From: Streptomyces diastatochromogenes
GTDB lineage: Bacteria > Actinomycetota > Actinomycetes > Streptomycetales > Streptomycetaceae
DNA: 63,441 bases
Direction of reading: 5' to 3'
Assembly (NCBI GenBank): GCA_001550305.1
Contig: LRTP01000639.1
Span: forward strand, 1 to 63,441
The notes beneath the pieces were generated by a model, which was given only the letters and a program-made list of their open reading frames with translations, was not told the origin of the DNA and ran no database searches. Shown piece after piece: positions 7,353-34,330 of the stretch. Position numbers and translations under genes: made by a program. Each line of letters starts with the position of its first letter. The stretch's first letter is position 1.

Positions 7353-8229
7353 CCGGCAGTCCCGGACAACCGGCAGCCTTTACGGCCACCGGGCACCCAG
7401 CCCTGCCCACACCCACCCTGACTGACCTGTACTACAGCCGGGGATCTTGCGGGGGTCTATCATGATTTAGGTGTTTTTCGTCCGGTTGGCGTAGTGAGTG
7501 GGTAGGGGGCTGTTCGGCCTGCACCCGTCCGGCGGTGAGGCGGCCGTCGAAGAGCAGGTCGAACTCGTTGAGAGCGGACTTCCACCGGTTGTTCCAGCGC
7601 TGTCGGCCGCGTCCGGTGGGGTCGAGGGCGAGGGTGGTCAGGTACAGGCGCTTGAGGGCGGCCTGCTCGTTGGGGAAATGTCCGCAGGCGCTCGCCGCGC
7701 GTCGGTAGCGGGCATTGAGGCTTTCGATCGCGTTCGTGGTGTACACGACCTGGCGGATGGCGTCGGGCAGGCCGAGGAAGGGCACGAACTCGCTCCAGGC
7801 GCGCTCCCAGGTGCCGGCGATCGAGGGATACTTCGTGCCCCACTTCTCGGCGAACTCGCCGAGGCGGACGCGGGCTTGCTCCTCGTTGACGGCGGTGTAG
7901 ACGGGCTTGAGGTCGCGGGCGACCTCCGCCCAGTCGCGCCGCGAGGAGTAGCGCAGGCTGTTTCTGATCAAGTGGACGATGCACGTTCGGACCACGGTCT
8001 GGGGCCAGACGGTATTCACCGCCTCGGGCAGGGCGGACAGGCCGTCGCAGACCAGCATGAGCACATCGCGCACGCCGCGGTTCTTGATCTCCGTCAGCAC
8101 GGTCTGCCAGTATTTGGCGCCTTCACCGCCGGTGCCGGCCCACAGCCCCAGGATCTCGCGGTAGCCGTCCGCGGTGACCGCGATGGCCACGTAGACCGGA
8201 CGATTGGCCACGTGCCCGTCGCGGATCTT

Positions 8230-9915
8230 GGTTCTGTCGACGATCTTGTGATCCGGACGGTTGAGCGGTTCGTGCCGACCGTTCGCAATCATGCATCGCG
8301 TGCTCTCGTGATGTGCTTTTGGAGCTGTTTCCTTACCTGTCCGCGTTGCTCATCGAGGAGGTCGAGCGACGGCCGGACAAGGTGGTGTTGAGGACGCGGG
8401 TGCGGGCGGCGAGCGGGTCCTGTCGGTGCGGTCAAAGCTCCGCTCGGGTGCACGGCCGGTACGTACGCAAGCTGCGTGACGTCGCCGTGGGCGGACTGGG
8501 CGTGGTGATCGAGTTACGCATACGCCGGTTCCGCTGCGAGAACACTGCCTGCACGGCGGTGACGTTCGCCGAACAGATCGTGGGACTGACGACCCCGCAC
8601 AGTCGGCAGACCCCGCTATTGCGCGCGGTGCTGACGCGGATCGGACTGGCCCTGGCCGGCCGGGCAGGAGCCCGCCTGGCCTCCGCGGTCGGCATCACCG
8701 TGGGCAAGGACACGCTGCTGCGGCTGGTCAGAGCCCTGCCCGAACCGGAGGTCGGCGAGGTGGAGGTCCTCGGCGTTGACGACTTCGCCTTCCGCAAGGG
8801 CCGTCACTACGGCACGGTGCTGATCGACATGGCAACCCACCGTCCACTGCATCTCTACGAGGGGCGCGAGGGCGAAGACCTCGCCGCATGGCTCCGCGAC
8901 CACCCCGAGGTGAAGGTGATCTGCCGGGACCGGTCCAGTGGTTACGCGGAGGGCGCACGCATCGGAGCGCCGCAGGCCGAGCAGGTCGCTGATCGCTATC
9001 ATCTGTGGGCCAATCTCGGCCAGGCGGTCGAGAAGACAGTGAACGGTCATCGCTCCCGTCTGGCCGAACCGCCTTCACAACCCGCAGACACCCCCGACGA
9101 ACCGCAGGTAGTCCAGCTGCCGACAGAGCTGAAGATCGTGACTCGGCTCCGTGAACAGCATGCTGCCGCCCACGAGTTGTGGCAGCAGGGGATGTCGAAG
9201 GCGGGGATCGGCCGGAAACTCGGACTGCACCAGGCCACCGTCCGCAAACTGGTTAACGCCCCCTCCGCGGACGACGTCGTCCCAAAAGCCTGCAGCGGGC
9301 GCACGTCGTCGACCCGTATGTCGGCTACCTGCACCGGCGCTGGAACGATGGCGTCAGAAACGCCACCCAGCTCTACCGCGAGATTCAGAAACAGGGCTAC
9401 CCCGGAGGCGAGTTGGCCGTCCAACGTCATCTGCGGCAGTACCGCACCGGGCGCGGACACGCACCCGATCCGGGGCCGAAGCCTCCGTCGGTCCGCGAGG
9501 TCACCTCATGGATCATGACTCACCCCGAACACCTGCGGGACGAGGCCGCCGGCAAGCTTCACCGGCTGCGTGAACGCGATCCCGAGCTGGACCGGCTCAC
9601 TCTTCACGTCAGGAAGTTCGCCGTCATGATGACCGCACGCCACGGCGACCGCCTCGAGGACTGGATCACCGAGGTCGAACGAGACTCCCTCGCCCCACTC
9701 GCGGGCTTCGCCCGCAACCTCCGCCGCGACTTCGACGCCGTCCGCAACGGACTGTCCCTTCCTCACAGTTCCGGCGCCGTCGAAGGCAACATCAACCGGC
9801 TGAAGATGCTGAAACGGCAGATGTTCGGCCGGGCCAGCCTCGATCTCCTTCGCAAACGCGTCCTGCTCGCGCGATGAGTCCAGCCCATCCGGATCACAAG
9901 ATCGTCGACAGAACC
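8230..9915 (+). mobile_element. ISL3-family insertion sequence with 8-bp target duplication
   Basis: Starts GGTTCTGTCGACG and ends with its inverted complement CGTCGACAGAACC; the inverted repeats run about 27 bp with near-perfect identity. CGGATCTT occurs on both sides (8222-8229 and 9916-9923), the 8-bp duplication expected of ISL3. The target is the IS256 transposase gene. The clear duplication and matching ends point to a recent insertion. Confidence 0.9.
8313..9877 (+). CDS. ISL3-family transposase, one frameshift
   Basis: The N-terminal zinc-finger region and DDE domain are in the first frame (VLGVDDFAFRKGRHYGTVLI, DRSSGYAEGA, ADRYHLWANLGQAVEK). After a -1 shift at 9281-9287 the protein continues LQRAHVVDPYVGYLHRRW and ends with the catalytic region SSGAVEGNINRLKMLKRQMFGRA. 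The shift site is C-CCA-AAA, which has the X-XXY-YYZ form of a slippery heptamer, but ISL3 enzymes are normally a single frame, so a lost A is equally likely. All catalytic motifs are otherwise present. Confidence 0.8.
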
Positions 9916-10480
9916 CGGATCTTGACGTGGATCGCGTCGATGAACACCACCGGATCGAGCGGGCGGGTGCGCCAGTCCGCCATCGAATCAAGGGCCTTGT
10001 CGGTGATCGTGGACACCGTCTCCTTGCTCGTGGCCATCTGGTACACCTCGGCCAGGTGCGCGACGATCTCCCCGGACGTCAGGCCCTTCGCGGTCAGCGA
10101 CAGCACCATCTCATCCAGCGCCCCCGTGCGGCGCCCGTAGCGAGGAAGCAGCCGCGGGGTGAAGGTGCCCAGCCGGTCACGCGGCACCTGCACCACCACC
10201 GGCCCGGCTTGCCTCCTCGGCCAGATGCAGGTCCATCTCCGTCTCCAGCGCGGACTGCATCAGATGCTGCGCGATCTCGGGCAGCAGCCCGCCCTCGCCC
10301 ATCAACCGCAGCCCGTCACCCTCGCGGGTCTTCTCGGCCGCCAGCGCGGCCAGCTCCTGCCAGCCGTTGGCGCGGGCCTCGCGGATGCGCTCGCGGAGGT
10401 TCTGGATGATCTCGAACTGGATGTCACGAGATGCTGCGTCCAACTCTGTTGCGCTCCTTCATCGTTCGGATGCGCAACGT

Positions 10481-11015
10481 CTACCGACTAAGCCATGCGG
10501 GGGATGCGTTCATGTCCGGCGTGTCGTCCGGTAGTCCGGTCAAGAGGCGTCCGCCAGCGCATCCGATCGCGATGTGCCGGGGTCCGGCGGGCAGGCTCGC
10601 ATAGTCGACGAGGTTGTCGAGCAGTTCGCGGGCGCCGGGGGTGTTCAGGACGACGTCCTGCACGCGCGAGTTCAGGCCGTCCAGGTCCAGGATGTCGCGG
10701 GCGGCCGCCGGGTCGCGGAGGCGGTCGCGGACATCCTCGGTGCGGTCGGCCTGCGGGGGAACGGGGGCGGCTCTTGCTGTCCTTCGGGAGGTGGAGGAAG
10801 CCTAACGACGTCAGCTTGATGGGCTCGGGCATGTGAAGTCCCTTTCGGGGAGGCTGGACTGGCGCGCGGGGGGGCCGGACGTGGAGATCGACGGCCGCCC
10901 CCGACGTCACTGAGGTGGTGGAGGCACTCGCGTCGGCGGTTGCCGCCCGGGCGGCACTCGCCTGGAGTTCGGCGTGGCGCTGCATGAGCTGGTCGGTGGC
11001 CGTGGGGTCGGTCAT
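10481..11015 (-). pseudogene. RapZ C-terminal-domain-like protein, frameshifted and truncated
   Basis: From ATG 10832 (preceded by GAAAGGGA) the protein starts MPEPIKLTSLGFLHLP, then shifts frame and continues ADRTEDVRDRLRDP, LDGLNSRVQDVVLNTPGARE, GPRHIAIGCAGGR. This matches the domain found at the C-terminus of the RNase adaptor RapZ and in free-standing actinomycete proteins. Right after GCAGGR, where the family has HRS and a further 40 residues, the sequence diverges at the edge of the IS256 element. An in-frame ATG at 11015 would add a 60-residue alanine-rich leader; whether that is a separate gene whose stop was lost is unclear. Confidence 0.65.
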
Positions 11016-25245: not shown

Positions 25246-25270
25246 CACCCCGGCCGGCGAACCACGCAGC

Positions 25271-25322
25271 CAGGGGTCCGGGTGTGCTGCCGCCCGGCGG
25301 TGGCAGCACACCCGGACCCCTG
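25271..25322. terminator. Strong hairpin terminator
   Basis: A near-perfect inverted repeat with a 21-bp fully paired outer stem (starting CAGGGGTCCGGGTGTGC) and a GC-rich loop, located 30 bases beyond the stop of the exported-protein gene on the minus strand. It can act in both directions. Confidence 0.85.
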
Positions 25323-25352
25323 GCGGTCAGCGGGTGCGGGGCGGGGCGGCTG

Positions 25353-25904: not shown

Positions 25905-26417
25905 TCAGCACGGGCCCGCGTTGCTATTGCCCCAGTTCGCGCCACTGGCATAGGCGTGCCACGAGCCGTAGCCCACGCCGCAGGCGAGGGAGATATTGAC
26001 CGTCGCCTGCCAGGTGTCGGGGTTGGAGTTGTGTATCGGAACCCAGCCGGTGGTGACGTCCTGCGGGCCGAGGATCGTCTCGGTGTTGTTGCACGGAGGG
26101 TTGGCGAACCCTTGCGGCATGAGGCAGGGGTTCGCTGACCAGTTGCTCGGGAGCGGGTCGTTGCGGTGGTTGACCCAGTAGCTGTAGGAGTACTGGAAGT
26201 GGGCGCGGGCGCTGCCGCAGCTGTTGTACTGCTGCTCCACCTGGCCGGCGTACTCGCCGCCGACGTAGATGTTGCCAGGGGCGCCGATGTTGATGATGGT
26301 GCAGCTGGCGGGGGCGGCGTGTGCGGCTCCGCCGACATCGATGATGGTGCCGCCTGCGACGGCCAGGGTCGCGGCGGCCATGGCGATGGTGCGTCGGGCC
26401 GTTCCGAGTTTCAGCAT
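25905..26417 (-). CDS. Exported cysteine-containing protein, unknown
   Basis: 170 residues with a Sec signal peptide (MLKLGTARRTIAMAAATLAV, cleavage near AHA-A at residue 34). The mature part has six cysteines (PASCTI, YNSCGS, NPCLM, PPCNN, LACGVG and a final PC) and aromatic-rich strands (HFQYSYSYWVNHRND). The even cysteine count suggests three disulfides. It is transcribed in the same direction as the 25353 gene, 150 bases upstream of it. Function unknown. Confidence 0.75.
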   Translation of the reverse strand: MLKLGTARRTIAMAAATLAVAGGTIIDVGGAAHAAPASCTIINIGAPGNIYVGGEYAGQVEQQYNSCGSARAHFQYSYSYWVNHRNDPLPSNWSANPCLMPQGFANPPCNNTETILGPQDVTTGWVPIHNSNPDTWQATVNISLACGVGYGSWHAYASGANWGNSNAGPC

Positions 26418-26683
26418 GGGTGTGTTTCCCCCTCGTAGTTGATACCCCTTGCCGGAGCTGCTGGTTGTTCCTCTGGTTTCGTGCTGCCGCTTGGGCCGAC
26501 CTTGGAAGTGGCAGGTCCAGGCTGGCCGGGGCGCTGGAGTGGAGTCACGTTTCCCGTACGAATCCGTACGGCCCGCTTAAGACTCCTAACACAATGAGCT
26601 ACCGGGAATGACTGTCTGTCAGCTTGCGTTTTCCTCGTATCGGTATCGGCGGGGTGTGGGGGTGTGCGACGGCTTCTGGGGCG

Positions 26684-27496
26684 GTGAAGCGCAAGCCGTG
26701 GGAGGTCGAGGACGGGCTGTGGGAGCGGATTGAACCGCTGCTCCCGGTAGTGGAGCGGCGCTACCGCTATCCCGGACGTAAGCGGCTTGACCAGCGCAGG
26801 GCCATGTGCGGGATCCTGTTCGTGCTGTACACGGGGATCCGGTGGGAGTTCCTGCCGCAGGAGCTGGGCTTCGGCTCCGGGATGACCTGCTGGCGTCGGC
26901 TGCGCGACTGGAGGGAGGCCGACGTGTGGCAGCGGTTGCACGAACTCCTGCTCGCCGAACTCCGAGCTGGCGACGCCTTGGACCTGTCCCGCGCCTCCGT
27001 CGACGGCTCCCACCTGCGGGCCCTGAAGGGCGGAGACGCCACCGGGCCCTCGCCAGTGGACCGGGGCAAGACGGGCAGCAATCACCACGTCATTGTCGAC
27101 GCCCACGGCATACCCCTGGCCGCCACCGTGACCGGTGGCAACCGCAACGACGTCACCCAGCTCCTGCCCCTGATCCACGCCGTACCGCCCATCCGCGGCA
27201 ATCGCGGACGTCCCCGTCAGCGCCCCGACGTCCTCTACGCCGACCGCGGTTACGACCACAACGTCTACCGCCGCCAGGTCCGTGAGCTGGGCATCCGCCC
27301 GCTCATTGCCCGGCGCGGCACCGAGCACGGAAGCGGCCTGGGCAAGAACCGCTGGGTCGTCGAAGCGGCCTTCGCGCTTCTGCGCTGGTTCCGCCGGCTG
27401 CGTATCCGCTGGGTAATCCGCGCCGACATCCACCAGGCCTTCCTCACCCTCGGCTGCGCAATCATCTGCTGGCGGCGCCTCAGAAAACAGTGCTGA
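26684..27496 (+). CDS. IS5-family transposase, intact
   Basis: About 270 residues from GTG 26684 (KRKPWEVEDGLWERIEPLLP); an upstream TTG at 26624 would abut the terminal repeat and is less likely. The DUF4096 front part reads RRAMCGILFVLYTGIRWEFL. The DDE residues are in SVDGSHLRALKGG, LYADRGYDHNVYR and NRWVVEAAFALLRWFRRL. Length and motifs are complete, so it could mobilise the whole passenger unit between the 42-bp repeats. Confidence 0.88.
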   Translation: MKRKPWEVEDGLWERIEPLLPVVERRYRYPGRKRLDQRRAMCGILFVLYTGIRWEFLPQELGFGSGMTCWRRLRDWREADVWQRLHELLLAELRAGDALDLSRASVDGSHLRALKGGDATGPSPVDRGKTGSNHHVIVDAHGIPLAATVTGGNRNDVTQLLPLIHAVPPIRGNRGRPRQRPDVLYADRGYDHNVYRRQVRELGIRPLIARRGTEHGSGLGKNRWVVEAAFALLRWFRRLRIRWVIRADIHQAFLTLGCAIICWRRLRKQC

Positions 27497-27505
27497 TCTG
27501 AGCCC

Positions 27506-28483
27506 TCAGCCCGAACCGGCGACCAGTGCCTCGCCGAGCGGGGTGCGCCGGTAGAGCACCGACCGTCCGGACCGGGCGCGGACGAGCAGCCCCGCGCCTC
27601 GCAGGATGGTGAGGTGGTCTCCTACCGCGCCGGGTGCCATGGCGAGGCTTCGGGCGAGGTGGCTGGTGCTGGCCGGGGCGTCCAGCGCCACCAGCAGCCG
27701 GGCTCGGGCCCGGCCGACCAGAGCGGTCAGCGCGTCCGGTTGGGGGACGGTCTCCTGTTCGCCTCACAGGGCGGCGGTGCCGCGGGCACGGTAGACCAAG
27801 GTCCTGGGCCAGGGGTCTTCCATTTGGGCGGCGATATGCCCGACGATGGCCGAAGGGATCAGCAGGAGCCCGTCGCCGGCGAGGCGGACTGTTCCGCCTC
27901 GGAAGAAGCCGATCTCGATACCGCCGGCGCGCCAGGCGACGCCCGGGTGCAGGCTCTCGATGGTCGCGGCCCATCCGTGTTCGCCGATCACACCCACCCG
28001 GTGCACGACATCGCGCTCACAGATCGCGCGCAGCTGCGGCCAGTCCGCGGCGAGCAGCTCGTGCCACGCCTGGTCCATCGCCTCGGCGATCCTGGAGACG
28101 GCATCCGCCGAGTCCAGCACTGCGCGTACGCGGGGATCACGGGCGGACGGGCCGGTCGCGGTGGCGGCGAATTCGTGGCGGGCCGCTTCCAGCGGTGTGG
28201 CCCGGATCACGGCCAGGTCGTCAGCCCAGGTCTGGATGAGGCCGCGCGGGGGCGGGGCGACGAAGTTCGGTCCGCCTTGCGGGGCCTGCAGCGCGAGGGC
28301 GGCGTCCAGTTCGGTCTCGCGGCGAAGCCGTTCAAAGGCCGGCATGAGCCGGGTGGCCCAGGCTCGCGGCAGCGGCTGGCCTTGGCCGGCGAGCGAGCGC
28401 AGCAGCAAACAGAGGTCCAGTGCAGGCGACAGCGCGAAGCGGCTGCGCAGCAGGTCCTCGACGGAGACTTCGATGCGCAGCAC
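27506..28483 (-). pseudogene. ArsR-type regulator (DUF5937-like N-terminus) with one in-frame TGA
   Basis: From ATG 28483 the frame runs 239 residues (MLRIEVSVEDLLRSRFAL, PLEAARHEFAA, GGIEIGFFRGGTVRLAGDGL, LVYRARGTAAL), meets TGA at 27764-27766, and continues in frame with GEQETVPQPDALTALVGRAR and the winged helix PASTSHLARSLAMAPGAVGD and HLTILRGAGLLVRARSG. The family usually has tryptophan here (ALW), one base from TGA. Without the C-terminal winged helix the regulator would not bind DNA, which could leave the divergent exporter gene unrepressed. It ends nine bases from the transposase stop. Confidence 0.75.
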
Positions 28484-28514
28484 CCTGCGACGCTACCGCA
28501 GGACGTCCGTTCCG

Positions 28515-28534
28515 ATTCGTCCAGCGACGAATCA
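28515..28534. promoter_or_regulatory. Inverted-repeat operator between regulator and exporter
   Basis: GATTCGTC and GACGAATC arms separated by four bases lie in the 89-base gap between the divergent ArsR-type and MFS genes, the expected position for an ArsR operator controlling both. Confidence 0.65.
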
Positions 28535-28572
28535 TTGTTGGGTGGGGTGGGCGCACGGCGAGGCTGGGCGTC

Positions 28573-29889
28573 ATGACCCCAACCGCCGAACCCGCGCAGG
28601 TCAACCACCGTGCCACCTACCGGGAGGTGCTGGCCGAGCCGCGATTCCGGCTGCTCTTCTCAACCCGCACCGTCGCGATCACCGCGGACTCGCTGCGGAT
28701 CACCACGTTCTCGGTGCTGGTCTTCTCGGCCACCGGCTCCGCGCTGCTGAGCGCACTGGCCTTCGGCATCGGCTTCATCCCGCAGCTGTTCGGCTCGCTG
28801 CTGCTGGGCTCACTGGCCGACCAACTGCCGCCCCGCGCGCTCATCACCGGCGGCTACGCCTTGACGTGCGCCGCCGCCCTGCTGATCGCCCTGGTGCGGA
28901 TGCCGATCGCGGCAAGCCTCGGTGTCGTGGCGCTGGTCGCCCTCGCTACACCGGTGTTCAGCGGCGCGTCGAGTCGGCTGGTCGCGCAGTGGCTGGAGGG
29001 CGACGCCTATGTACTGGGCCGTTCACTGAACAACATCGCTTCCTCCGGCGCGCAATTGTTCGGTCTGGCGCTGGGAGGTGCGGCCGTCGCGGTACTCGGC
29101 CCGCACCGGGCGCTCGCGGTCAGCGCCGCCCTCTACCTCGGCTGCGCGCTCGCTGTCCGCATCGGGCTACCCCGGCTGCAGCTGGGAGAGTTCGGCGGCA
29201 CACCCGGCAGCGCTCGGGGCGATGGCGGGGCCGTCCGGGCAAGTCTGCACGGTGCCGGCCTGCTGCTGCGCGGACGCACGGTGCGACGACTGATGCTGGC
29301 CCAGTGGCTACCGTGCGCGTTCGTAGCGGGCGCGGAAGGTCTGATCGTCGCCTACGCGGGAGGACGCCACTTCGCGCCCGGCTGGTACGCGGTGCTGATG
29401 GGCTGTTTGCCGGTCGGCATGCTGGCCGGTGATCTGCTGGTGGGTCGACTGCTGCGGCCGCCCACCCGGGAGCGACTGGTGGTCCCGTTGATTGCGCTGA
29501 TGGGACTGCCGCTGGTCGGCTTCGCTGCCGAGCCCGGAGTGGGTGTCTCGTCCTGTCTGCTGCTGCTCTGCGGCTTCGGATTCGCCTATGGTCTCGGCTT
29601 GCAACGGCCGTTCCTGGACGCCCTCCCGCAGGATGGTCAGGGCCAGGCCTTCGGTCTGCTCGGCTCCGGCAACATGACGCTGCAGGGCGTCGGGCCGGTC
29701 TGCTTCGGGTTGGTGGCCGCAGGCATCGGAACAGGCGGCGCAATCGCCCTGGCAGGCGGTGCGGCGGCGCTTACCGCCGGCTGGATTCTCACCTGGCACC
29801 CGCCCACCTCCCCGGTCTCCGTACCGAACTACTCAACGGGATCAGAGAACGGCACCGAACAGCATGCGTGTCGTTCTCCTGCGCAGTAA
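28573..29889 (+). CDS. MFS exporter
   Basis: 438 residues with about twelve hydrophobic segments. The conserved loop after helix 2 reads GSLADQLPPRALITGGY, the motif-A position of major facilitator proteins, and the overall pattern resembles the macrolide-efflux type group (FRLLFSTRTVAITADSLRIT at the start). It should export a drug or metabolite with proton uptake. It is divergent from the ArsR-type gene with an operator-like repeat between, and lies inside an IS5-type unit, so it can be spread with it. The substrate is unknown. Confidence 0.82.
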   Translation: MTPTAEPAQVNHRATYREVLAEPRFRLLFSTRTVAITADSLRITTFSVLVFSATGSALLSALAFGIGFIPQLFGSLLLGSLADQLPPRALITGGYALTCAAALLIALVRMPIAASLGVVALVALATPVFSGASSRLVAQWLEGDAYVLGRSLNNIASSGAQLFGLALGGAAVAVLGPHRALAVSAALYLGCALAVRIGLPRLQLGEFGGTPGSARGDGGAVRASLHGAGLLLRGRTVRRLMLAQWLPCAFVAGAEGLIVAYAGGRHFAPGWYAVLMGCLPVGMLAGDLLVGRLLRPPTRERLVVPLIALMGLPLVGFAAEPGVGVSSCLLLLCGFGFAYGLGLQRPFLDALPQDGQGQAFGLLGSGNMTLQGVGPVCFGLVAAGIGTGGAIALAGGAAALTAGWILTWHPPTSPVSVPNYSTGSENGTEQHACRSPAQ

Positions 29890-30056
29890 CCGTTGCAGGT
29901 CGGGTTGACCGCGAGCCGTCACGCACCCCACCCCCACGTCTCTCTGACAGACAGCCATTCCCGATAGCTCATTGTGTTAGGAGTCCTTATAGACTCTCCT
30001 TGTCAGGAGCGCGGCTTCACGGGGGAGTGGGCGTCGTGGGTGGGCAGCGGGGCGCT

Positions 30057-32426
30057 ATGCCGGATCCTAGCAAGGCGGCGGATCTGGCGGAGTTCGTCTG
30101 TTTGCTGGGTGAGTTGCGGGCCTGGGCGGGGATGCCGTCGTACCGGGTGCTTGCCAAAAGGGTCGGGCCGCTGATGCGACCGGCACGGGTTGTCTCGACG
30201 TCCACGGTCGTGGACGTGTTCAAGACCGGACGCAGTCGCCTGGACCTGGACCTGGTCGTGGGAATCGTCCGGGCGCTGGAGGCAGACGGGCCTGCGGTCG
30301 ATCTCTGGCGCAAGGCATGCATCAAGGTCCACGGGCTGGCCAAGACGGGCGGCCCAGTCGGGGTCTTCGGTCAACTGCCCACGGATCTGGCGACGTTCAC
30401 CGGGCGCCGTGAGGAACTCGCGCGCCTGATCGCGGCCGCGACGCAGCATCACGACCGCAGCGGTCCAAACACGGTCGTGATCTCCGCGGTCGAGGGCATG
30501 GCCGGGGTCGGCAAGACCCAGCTCGCGATCCATGCCGCCCACAAACTGGTACGCGCCGGGTATTTCACCGACGTGCAGCTGCATGTGAACCTGCGCGGCT
30601 TCGACCCCGAACTCCCGCCCGCGGACCCGTCCGCGGTGTTGGAGGCGTTCCTGCGGCAGCTGGGAGTATCCGCGCCGCATATCCCCGAGAGTCGGGACGA
30701 GCGGGCGGCGATGTACCGCGACCGAATGCGGGATCGTCGTGCCTTGGTGCTGCTGGACAACGCCGCCACCGAGGACCAGGTCCGCGACCTCATCCCAGCC
30801 GGGCCCACATGCCTGGTCCTCATCACCAGCCGCCGCAGCCTCGCCGGACTCGACAGTGCCACCCCGCACCTGATCGGCACTTTCACCGAAACCGAAGCAC
30901 TCGACCTGCTCACCCGGATTGCCGGACATGACCGTGTGGCCGCCGAACCCGAAGCTGCCGCACGCGTCATCGGGTACTGCGACCGCCTCCCACTCGCCCT
31001 GGCGCTGACCGCCGCCCGGCTCCGCTCCCGGCCCGCCTGGAGCCTGGCCGAACTCGCCGACCGGATGCAGGCCGGGCGTCTGGAGGCGATCAGCGCCGGC
31101 GGCCGCGCAATACGCCCTGTGTTCGACGCGTCCTACCAGGCACTCCCAGACAGGGCACAGCAGGTGTTCCGCCTCATTGGCCTTCACCCCGGCCCGGACT
31201 TCAGCGCAGCGGCGGCCGCCGCATTGGCGGGCATCACCGCCAGCGGGGCCGCCGAGGTACTGGAACTGCTCCTGGACGAACACCTGCTCCAGCAAAAGCG
31301 CAGCGGGCGCTTCGAACTCCACGACCTGCTCCGCGCCTACGCCAATGAGCAGGCCAACACCATTGACCCTGACCAGGAGCGCCGCGCTGCAGTGCACCGG
31401 ATGCTGGATCACTATGTGCATACCGCGCACGACGCCGCCCTGCTGTTGGAACGGGGCCGGGACCCGCTGAACCTGCCCCCGCCGCAACCGGGGGTCTGCT
31501 TGGAACACTTCGCCGATCACGAGCGGGCGCTGGCCTGGTTCACCACCGAACATGCCGTGCTTCTAAGCGCCGTAGGCCACGCCGCCGCCACCGGTTTCCA
31601 CGCCCACACCTGGCAGCTGGCCCACGCCCTCGCCACCTACCTCGATCGGCGCGGGAACTGGCACGACCTTGCCGCCCTCGGCAACACCGCCATAGACGCC
31701 GCCGACCGGCTGGCCGACCCCCTCGGGAAGGCCATCGCCCACAATATCGTCGCCCGCGCCCACCGCCGCCATGGCAACTACGAGGACGCCCAGCATCACC
31801 TACGCCACGCACTCGACCTGTTCGGCCGGATCGGTAACCTGGATGGGCAGGCCGATACGTACATCGAACTCGCCAGAGTGAAGGCTCGGCAGAGCCCTCC
31901 TGCCATTGCCGAAGCACTTACGCTTTCCCGTCAAGCCCACGCCTTGTACCAGTCCTGTGGCCACCGGCTGGGGCAGGCCCAGACCCTCACCGCCATCGGC
32001 TGGTCGCACGCGCGTCTTGGCGACTATGCACAGGCCTTGACCTGCTGCCGACAGGCTCTGCCTGTCCTTGAAGAATTCGACGACCGTGAACGGCAGGCCC
32101 ATGCCTGGGACAGCATCGCCTACGCCCACAGCGACCTGGGTCAGCACTCCCAAGCCGTCGCGTGCTACAGACTCGCCCTTGATCTGTGCCGCGACCTCGG
32201 CGACCGCCCACTAGAAGCAGACATCCTCAATCGCTTCGGCGACGCCCACCATGCCGCGCACTACCCCGATGCAGCCCACGACGCTTGGCAACAGGCCCTT
32301 GACATCCTCACCGAACTCGATCAGCCCTACGCCGACCAGATCCGCAGCAAGCTCGGTCTGTACGGTGACCGGTGGGAAGTCCCGGACACGGGGCGTGTCA
32401 GAGGGCAGTACCAGAGGACGTTCTGA
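30057..32426 (+). CDS. NB-ARC/TPR regulatory ATPase with N-terminal HTH-like domain
   Basis: 789 residues from ATG 30057. Residues 10-90 form a helical XRE-like domain (CLLGELRAWAGMPSYRVLAK, TVVDVFKTGRSRLDLDLVVG). The NB-ARC STAND ATPase follows: Walker A GMAGVGKT (147-154), Walker B RRALVLLDNA, then CLVLITSRRSL and the GLPL-like RLPLALALTAARL. A winged-helix segment and about six TPR repeats (RALDLFGRIGNLDGQADTYI, QALTCCRQALPVLEEF) make up the C-terminal half. It is like AfsR/SARP proteins without the SARP domain: ligand sensed by TPRs, ATP-driven oligomerisation. It starts 70 bases after the IS5 unit and stands alone. Confidence 0.82.
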   Translation: MPDPSKAADLAEFVCLLGELRAWAGMPSYRVLAKRVGPLMRPARVVSTSTVVDVFKTGRSRLDLDLVVGIVRALEADGPAVDLWRKACIKVHGLAKTGGPVGVFGQLPTDLATFTGRREELARLIAAATQHHDRSGPNTVVISAVEGMAGVGKTQLAIHAAHKLVRAGYFTDVQLHVNLRGFDPELPPADPSAVLEAFLRQLGVSAPHIPESRDERAAMYRDRMRDRRALVLLDNAATEDQVRDLIPAGPTCLVLITSRRSLAGLDSATPHLIGTFTETEALDLLTRIAGHDRVAAEPEAAARVIGYCDRLPLALALTAARLRSRPAWSLAELADRMQAGRLEAISAGGRAIRPVFDASYQALPDRAQQVFRLIGLHPGPDFSAAAAAALAGITASGAAEVLELLLDEHLLQQKRSGRFELHDLLRAYANEQANTIDPDQERRAAVHRMLDHYVHTAHDAALLLERGRDPLNLPPPQPGVCLEHFADHERALAWFTTEHAVLLSAVGHAAATGFHAHTWQLAHALATYLDRRGNWHDLAALGNTAIDAADRLADPLGKAIAHNIVARAHRRHGNYEDAQHHLRHALDLFGRIGNLDGQADTYIELARVKARQSPPAIAEALTLSRQAHALYQSCGHRLGQAQTLTAIGWSHARLGDYAQALTCCRQALPVLEEFDDRERQAHAWDSIAYAHSDLGQHSQAVACYRLALDLCRDLGDRPLEADILNRFGDAHHAAHYPDAAHDAWQQALDILTELDQPYADQIRSKLGLYGDRWEVPDTGRVRGQYQRTF

Positions 32427-32691: not shown

Positions 32692-32695
32692 CTAG

Positions 32696-34261
32696 TACTC
32701 CAGCCGTAGTTCGGTATCTGGGCTGGTCAGCGGCCTGGTGGCGTGGAGTGTAGCGGGGCGCCAGGTGGGCGGGACGGATTTCCCCACCGCGCCCCGGCGA
32801 ATAGGTAGCCGCGCCGTTCGTAGTGGCTCTGGCGGGCGCGTGCCTGGTGGCGTCGTCTCCACCGTGACCAGGTCAGCGTGTGGTGGTGGCGTGCGGGGTG
32901 GTGCGGGGACTCAGCTGCCAGGAGACGGCGGATCTCGGCCGGTGTGAGGTCCACGAGATCGGGCGTGTCGTCGCCGGGGCCCCCCTTTCGCGTTCCTGGG
33001 CGGCGATGGCGGCGAGGAACGCGTGGGCGAGCATGGCGAGGGTGATGTGCCGGTACCAGCCGGTGTAACGGCGGACCTCGTACTCGTCGAGGCCGCACTC
33101 GTTCTTCGCGGACTGGAAGCATTCTTCGATCTTCCAGCGGCATCCGGCGATCCGGGCCAGGTCGGCGAGGGTGGCGTCCAGCGGAGCGCTGGCCAGGAAG
33201 TAGGCGATGTCCTGGGGGTCGGTGATGCTGGGGCGGGCCAGCATCCACCGCCTGCGGGTGGGCTTGTCGCCGTCGCGTTCCTCGACGACGGGCAGGAGGG
33301 CGCCGGCCCAGTCGTAGCAGCGTTCGCCTTTGGCTCCGGGGCCGGCGGACAAGCGCTGCCATGCCTCCGGCGGGGCCTCACGGCGGATACGGTCCTCAAT
33401 GCGCGGGCCGTGGACCTGCTGGGACTTGGGGACGGCCACGACGTAGTGGAGCTTCAGGTCGTCTTCGAGGAAGCGGCGGAAGCGGCTGTCCTGGCCGTAG
33501 GCGGCGTCCGCGGTGACCCAGCGGAAGCGCAGCGGGGAGGCATGGGCCCGGCGGATCATGTCTTGGGCGAGGGCGTTCTTGGTGGCGAAAGTACGGTCGT
33601 CGGGGATGCGGGCGGCCTGGCAGCGGTCACGGTCGTCGGTCCAGGACCTGGGCAGATAGAGGTCACGGTCGACGAGGGCGTGTCCCCGGCTGGTGGCATA
33701 GGCGGCGAACACGCCGATTTGGCAATTTTCGGTGCGTCCGGCGGTGCCGGAGTATTGGCGCTGTACTCCGGCGGAGGTGGTCCCCTTCTTGATGAAGCCG
33801 GTGTCGTCGACGATCAACACGCCGTCGTCATGGCCGAGTTGGTCGGCCACGTACTGCTGCAGGTCGTCGCGGACACTGTCGGCGTCCCAGCGGCTGCGGG
33901 AGAGCAGGTACTGCAGTCCGTCCGGGGTGGCGTGGCCGGCCCACTCGGCGAGCTGCCACCCGTTCTTGCGGCCGACCGGAGCGAGCAGGCCGCGTACGTA
34001 GTCCCGCATCCGCCTACGGGGCTCGATCCGGGTGAAGCGGCTCCCGGTCCGCAGGAAGAGTTCTTCGAGTTCCCGATCCCACATATTCACCGGCGCATCG
34101 TTGAGCATGTCGAGGGACTGCTCGCACCAGCTCACAGGCATGCGGCAGAGCACTCGTTCGTGGGGCGCGATGGCGAAGTCCGTCCCGCCCACCTGGCGCC
34201 CCGCTACGCTCCACGCCACCAGGCCGCTGACCAGCCCAGATACCGAACTACGGCTGGAGTA
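32696..34261 (-). mobile_element. IS701-family insertion sequence with very long inverted repeats
   Basis: CTAG flanks the element on both sides (32692-32695 and 34262-34265), the 4-bp duplication expected for IS701. The terminal inverted repeats (32696-32794 and 34163-34261) are 99 bp with about five mismatches, far longer than the roughly 20-30 bp usual for the family, and the right copy contains the first codons of the transposase. Confidence 0.88.
32727..34219 (-). CDS. IS701-family transposase with one frameshift near its C-terminus
   Basis: From ATG 34219 the frame carries the DDE domain: LIVDDTGFIKKG, VTADAAYGQDSRFR and RWKIEECFQSAKNECGLDEY. At a run of six G near 32990 the natural continuation (DTPDLVDLTPAEIRRLLAAE, then HHHTLTWSRWRRRHQ) moves to another frame and runs to 32727. 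The frame without the shift ends at 32873. Either a G has been lost or slippage restores the end; catalytic residues are all before the lesion. A later in-frame start (MPVSWCEQSLDM) is possible. Confidence 0.8.
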
Positions 34262-34330
34262 CTAGCCGCCAGCGGCCCGCGGCCAGGGTCGCAAGGTCCA
34301 GGTCAGCCCGACGTGGCCGCCGGACCGAAA

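Follow-up and report, generated by a model that had tools for sequence, protein, structure and literature searches.

The 63,441-nucleotide stretch of Streptomyces diastatochromogenes DNA analyzed here (the window) carries an IS5-family transposase gene next to a divergent regulator/MFS transporter gene pair, all enclosed by inverted repeats. A preliminary description of the letters proposed that positions 26580–29986 form a single mobile unit carrying efflux genes, rather than two IS copies around a passenger. Does this region move as one unit, and how did the gene pair come to lie between the ends of an IS?

Boundaries and genes of the unit

The longest inverted pair listed in positions 26000–30600 consists of the 42-nt repeats at 26581–26622 and 29944–29985, which are 95% complementary, far above the 24 matching positions that were the maximum for random 42-mer pairs from the neighbourhood (mean 11.7, 2000 trials). 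The unit extends from one repeat to the other with one extra base on each side; because TTA stands at both flanks, its coordinates are exact, and the region was confirmed to be real as described (Table 1). The transposase stop (27494–27496) and the regulator stop (27506–27508) are nine bases apart, in agreement with the preliminary description. Self-comparison of the neighbourhood also returned a 56-bp near-palindrome (25269–25324, 89%) and a 104-bp inverted pair (32692–32795 and 34162–34265, 96%).

Table 1. Features of the mobile unit (positions in the window, unless a locus is named)
Feature	Position	Strand	Basis or remark
Whole mobile unit	26580–29986		3407 bp; ends, duplication, empty site, second full copy
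Left target duplication copy, TTA (3 bp)	26577–26579		single triplet at the G175 empty site
Right target duplication copy, TTA	29987–29989		flank reading and G175 empty site
Left terminal inverted repeat	26581–26622	+	self-comparison for inverted pairs
Outer right terminal inverted repeat, inverted near-copy of left end	29944–29985	-	inverted-pair search
IS5-family DDE transposase, 290 aa, single open frame	26624–27496	+	profile match; start TTG in the ORF list, true start may differ
Decayed remnant of original right end, overlapping transposase stop	27488–27505	-	terminal bases compared with passenger-less sisters
Regulator: DUF5937-like part and C-terminal ArsR-type HTH (27509–27763)	27506–28483	-	in-frame stop 27764–27766
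MFS transporter, 438 aa	28573–29889	+	closest NCBIfam profile TIGR00900 (H+ antiporter) at 76.5 bits, under its 319.6 cut-off
IS5-family units of ~1.9 kb with a 248-aa APH-superfamily phosphotransferase	L188 3732–5624; L190 3850–5742; L191 3787–5677; L196 3753–5658		

The transposase matched the IS5-family profile NF033580 with 226.9 bits (cut-off 110) and contains motifs of the D126, D205, and E245 types, as judged by eye. Like other members of this family, the unit combines terminal inverted repeats with a short target duplication (TTA/TTA, and a single triplet when empty). Among the unit copies compared, only the window has a full-length transposase in one frame; the gene is split between frames in L036 and L044, and both truncated and split in L045 and L101. 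Since the L036 transposase is split, of the two full copies of the unit only that of the window could be autonomous.

The divergent layout of the cargo, the ArsR-type HTH, and the MFS assignment given in the preliminary description all held, with the qualification that the regulator has two parts and is interrupted by a stop in the window. The transporter matched MFS_1 (51.6 bits, cut-off 33.4) and the C-terminal part of the regulator matched the ArsR-type HTH profile PF01022 (24.5 bits, cut-off 22), while its N-terminal part is DUF5937-like at 23 bits, below the 27.1 cut-off. The in-frame stop separates these two parts, and a sense codon occupies its place in all 51 other copies that cover the codon. 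Near-full regulators lack a stop in 48 of 49 cases, the exception being the window (L099, one of the 48, is split by a frameshift), and codons 1–405 are free of stops in 47 of the 48 near-full MFS genes. Dividing mean dN by mean dS gave 0.63 for the transposase (12 stretches long enough for comparison), against 0.34 for 49 copies of the MFS gene and 0.35 for 50 copies of the regulator. Thus, the cargo genes stay open while the transposases decay. Judging by family resemblance, the host probably uses the cargo to export a toxic compound; since the HTH is cut off and the window regulator lacks its DNA-binding part, the window exporter may be unregulated.

Empty site, second insertion, and distribution

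We searched for empty sites with joined flanks as queries against 392 Streptomyces genomes (one genome per species, many of them drafts, and apparently the same set in all searches of the genus), scoring two candidates per genome. The queries covered eight sites (the right flank of L202 being 9 short; L054 and L047 were left out), and with this scoring a match across the junction was obtained for two of them, the window and L202. For the window, genome G175 matched without gaps through the junction over 2497 bp at 94.9% identity (72 bp on the left and 2425 bp on the right), and a shorter flank query gave 1572 ungapped bp at 95.6%. The expected empty site was thus found, with a single triplet that differs by one base from the anticipated TTA: G175 has one TTG where the window has TTA twice. 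The L202 unit, which carries an AHSA1 gene, has empty sites in G140 and G376 (400 bp ungapped, one TAA). Among the matches listed (392 genomes, two candidates per genome), those for L188, L191, L196, L198, and L200 were one-sided, and none came from the joined flanks of L036. The right flank of the window, compared with 100 relatives, gave matches of 67–72% to related genes in the order and no empty site.

A second full copy of the unit was identified in Streptomyces sp. NBC_00154 (L036, 2958–6373). It is 95.5% identical over its length, shares no flanks with the window, and has its own duplication, TAA/TAA, as anticipated for a unit that occurs elsewhere. An exact 17-base end pattern searched over genome contigs was found at three loci, with a facing pair of matches only in L036; this search may not have covered records close to the genome of the window.

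The G175 empty site and the NBC_00154 insertion support the single mobile unit. We conclude that 26580–29986 is very probably one transposable unit, an IS5-family transporter IS whose transposase would act on the outer ends and insert everything between them at TWA with a 3-bp duplication. The boundaries, the duplication, the empty site, the second independent insertion, and the relatives with other cargo described below are established at the level of sequence. Several observations count against the single-unit reading: the left flank of the G175 empty site matches over 72 bp only, both ends are present in only two of the 55 sequences mapped on the unit, the L036 transposase is split between frames, one two-ended relative (L190) has unlike flank triplets, and a donor of the outer right end was seen in none of the loci.

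These 55 sequences are the window and the 54 loci from a search with the regulator/MFS stretch, which matches in at least 54 of the 392 Streptomyces genomes (E ≤ 1e-100), a lower bound because two candidates per genome were scored. The window and L036 have both ends, L044 has the left end alone, and the right end is reached, or approached to within 5 bp, in 14 of the 55. The transposase stretch matches over at most 7 bp in 23 sequences and is kept over at least 700 bp in five. A neighbouring gene matching the Mycothiol-S-transferase and DinB profiles was observed in 31 of the 55, on the right side of the unit in 28, within 100 bp of it in 26 of them, and on the left side and inverted in three. 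Retained right ends lie ~64 bp from this gene and are mostly followed by TAAG. These patterns are consistent with one older insertion beside the Mycothiol-S-transferase/DinB gene that would have been followed by loss of the left part and by exchange between strains.

Two further arrangements were observed in this set. Compared with L040 (8887–9489), the usual right-hand gene stands left and inverted in L120, L121, and L124, as if the unit had been inverted beside it. In L046, an insert of ~3.2 kb (7551–10766) with inverted ends GGGCCCGTAAA... and ...TTTACGGGCCC lies within CTAAG, exactly between the right end of the unit and the usual flank, and is probably another mobile element.

Outside Streptomyces, the regulator/MFS pair was found at 66–71% DNA identity, and in the four non-Streptomyces loci examined (L232–L235) both genes are present and the end motif is absent; the pair therefore exists without the IS. 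Of the possibility, considered at the outset, that the same pair is chromosomal without IS ends, this much applies to other genera and to eroded Streptomyces copies, but in no case with the flanks of the window. In a tree of 47 passenger sequences, the deep branches include L127 and L128, which have no IS remains, and L121, which has a transposase fragment; recombination is likely, and on this tree the Streptomyces copies that lack IS remains may predate or postdate the capture. A plasmid search returned 42 Streptomyces records with pieces of the unit, four of which cover at least 80% of it, and none of the best 20 of these 42 records reaches the left end.

Relatives with other cargo and a proposed route of capture

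In the loci examined, we recognized twelve units that have two ends and the end motif (the window, L036, L188, L190, L191, L194, L196, L198, L200, L202, L054, and L047). Their flank triplets agree in 11 cases, L194 included, the exception being L190 (TTA versus TAA), and a TWA target is seen in the units. Six unrelated cargo types occur in the clade: the regulator/exporter pair; an APH-type phosphotransferase, which matched PF01636 with 69.2 bits (cut-off 23.2) and is complete in eight loci and interrupted in L194; an AHSA1 protein (L197 and L202); a DUF5959 protein (L198); a 134-aa protein without a Pfam match (L200); and a pentapeptide-like protein (L054) that scored 23.2 bits with PF13576, below the cut-off of 27 (400 of 521 aa scanned). 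The alternative cargo genes all lie on the strand opposite to the transposase, like the window regulator. The 890-bp L047 is free of cargo, with 6 bp between the end of the transposase gene and the end of the element, and the right end of L051 was likewise located at the transposase end.

The transposase tree gives a support of 1.00 to each of four divisions, namely the regulator/MFS group, the AHSA1 pair, the split setting off the APH group, and the L198/L200/L054 group, which carries three unrelated cargos. By its transposase L201 belongs to the APH group, yet no APH gene was found at its locus. The ACTCCTAAC left motif is absent from L183, L184, L186, L192, and L199. In L192, a 436-aa frame that by eye resembles FAD-dependent monooxygenases follows the transposase directly on the opposite strand, with no unit ends found. 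The transposases of L047, L198, L200, L202, and L054 are each read in two frames, which overlap and join near a common site (GPSPVDRG); that of the window is in one frame. This resembles the IS427 group, for which programmed frameshifting has been reported; IS427 and IS1031 are names of subgroups within the IS5 family, with subgroup target rules.

The shorter passenger-less relatives that the preliminary description had asked about do exist, as in L047, but none was seen at 90% or more identity to the window transposase: all seven places at this level (E ≤ 1e-150) are linked to the regulator/MFS cargo. Its remark that IS5 members with passenger genes are rare needs revising, as relatives with other cargo were found and the unit is not a lone rarity in Streptomyces. 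Since these relatives carry other, unrelated cargo, the unit and its kin look like a small natural vehicle that picks up and moves genes. For the clade as a whole, we give an even chance to the reading that it is a cargo platform, in which the transposase and left end are kept, and a slot bounded by the transposase stop and a movable right end has repeatedly taken in unrelated opposite-strand host genes, each time through the placing of a new right end past a neighbouring gene and the loss of the old one.

A trace of such an old end was found inside the unit. Read inward from 27505, the remnant is GGGCTCAGATCA; its terminal bases match L231, L184, and L186 at 11 of 12 positions, L183 at nine, and L199 and the unit's own outer right end at eight, and no other place in the unit gives an 11/12 match. 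In the passenger-less sisters L231, L184, L183, L186, and L199, for not all of which a left end was found, the right end and the transposase stop overlap. The window remnant is followed by TCA, not TWA. An inner terminal repeat had been described as lacking: an intact third repeat is indeed absent, a decayed one is present, and the single-unit reading stands. Because the remnant lies partly in the transposase gene, common descent would be enough to preserve it; its point is that the old right end was at this place, which is now followed by cargo. In the window and L036, the outer right end repeats the left end over a length of 43 bp, compared with repeats of 15–19 bp in all nine other units tested. 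This copied outer end and the decayed inner end suggest how the cargo was enclosed, the simplest reading being that an inverted left end of the same IS came beyond the pair and took over.

The route would start from a regulator/MFS pair already in place next to a passenger-less IS of ~0.9 kb. The left end of this IS would then arrive as an inverted copy beyond the pair, for example if a second copy of the IS were reduced to that end, and decay of the old right end would leave only the outer ends usable, so that the transposase would act on these two and insert everything between them at TWA with a 3-bp duplication. A donor of the outer right end was not seen in any locus.

The same two traces, the 43-bp copy at the outer right end, as the end of an inverted second IS would give, and the inner right-end remnant, are also what a decayed composite transposon could have left, in which two inverted IS copies flanked the pair and the right one was deleted down to its left end. 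However, a second transposase on the right was seen in none of the 54 mapped loci (matches to the unit), and the window and L036 units moved in reduced form, each with its own duplication. We consider a composite remnant a tentative possibility; it and the preferred reading overlap as accounts of origin but differ on what is moving at present.

The broken transposases of the other long copies, and the further relatives in the window's own genome (e.g., 86% and 76%), would fit a passive cassette that has good ends but is moved by another IS5 relative's transposase, its own being incidental. We regard this as unlikely: the window transposase is one full open frame, and the left ends of passenger-less sisters, for example L183 and L199, are different (GGACTGG...). 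In our reading, the unit would be moved by the transposase that it encodes. The pair is also widespread without complete ends, in those 54 or more genomes and in other genera, as would be seen if a chromosomal pair merely lay between unrelated IS ends by chance, with no single mobile unit. Against this, all 3407 bp are missing together from the G175 empty site and the same whole unit occupies another site in NBC_00154, and such a coincidence is highly improbable. The preferred reading is thus one IS5-family unit that moves with its cargo.

Comparison with known mobile elements

The change of a single chromosomal gene into a mobile one is seldom visible. Here the state before (the pair without IS ends, and empty sites), a trace of the step (a decayed inner and a copied outer end), and the state after (the mobile unit) are all readable in sequence, so that the conversion of a bare IS into a gene carrier can be tested directly. 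The setting is antibiotic-producing bacteria, and sister elements carry an APH-superfamily kinase. In our searches of open literature, we recognized no account of IS5-family elements with passengers in Streptomyces; an earlier description may exist, for example in ISfinder.

Transporter ISs (tIS) are known from other families, such as IS1595. In the passages cited here, tIS is the name for ISs with passenger genes (PMC3129680, PMC7986276), which occur in a number of IS families (PMC7986276); IS5-family ISs are given a single transposase and a length of about 0.85–1.2 kb, a range for Ralstonia (PMC7371123); and transposable modules consist of one IS and adjacent DNA (PMC3281130). The unit shares with transposable modules and composite transposons the IS-driven movement of neighbouring host DNA, but both of its outer ends are defined repeats and it has no second transposase copy: in place of the second of two flanking ISs, the right side has the 42-bp end only. 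With the IS5 family it has in common the NF033580 transposase profile, the short target duplication, and passenger-less relatives of 0.9 kb, and it differs in its 3.4-kb length, two cargo genes, and 43-bp repeats. Like the tIS of the cited passages (PMC3129680, PMC7986276), it has one transposase and terminal repeats with cargo unrelated to transposition between them. It has passenger genes between IS ends and no second IS copy, the G175 empty site and the NBC_00154 insertion indicate that the whole moves as a unit, and on these sequence features we classify it as an IS5-family tIS. In contrast to known tIS, its transposase is of the IS5 family, its cargo varies between close relatives, and it keeps a trace of the old right end inside. 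Transporter ISs are already known, but the modular, repeatedly refilled IS5 form looks new.
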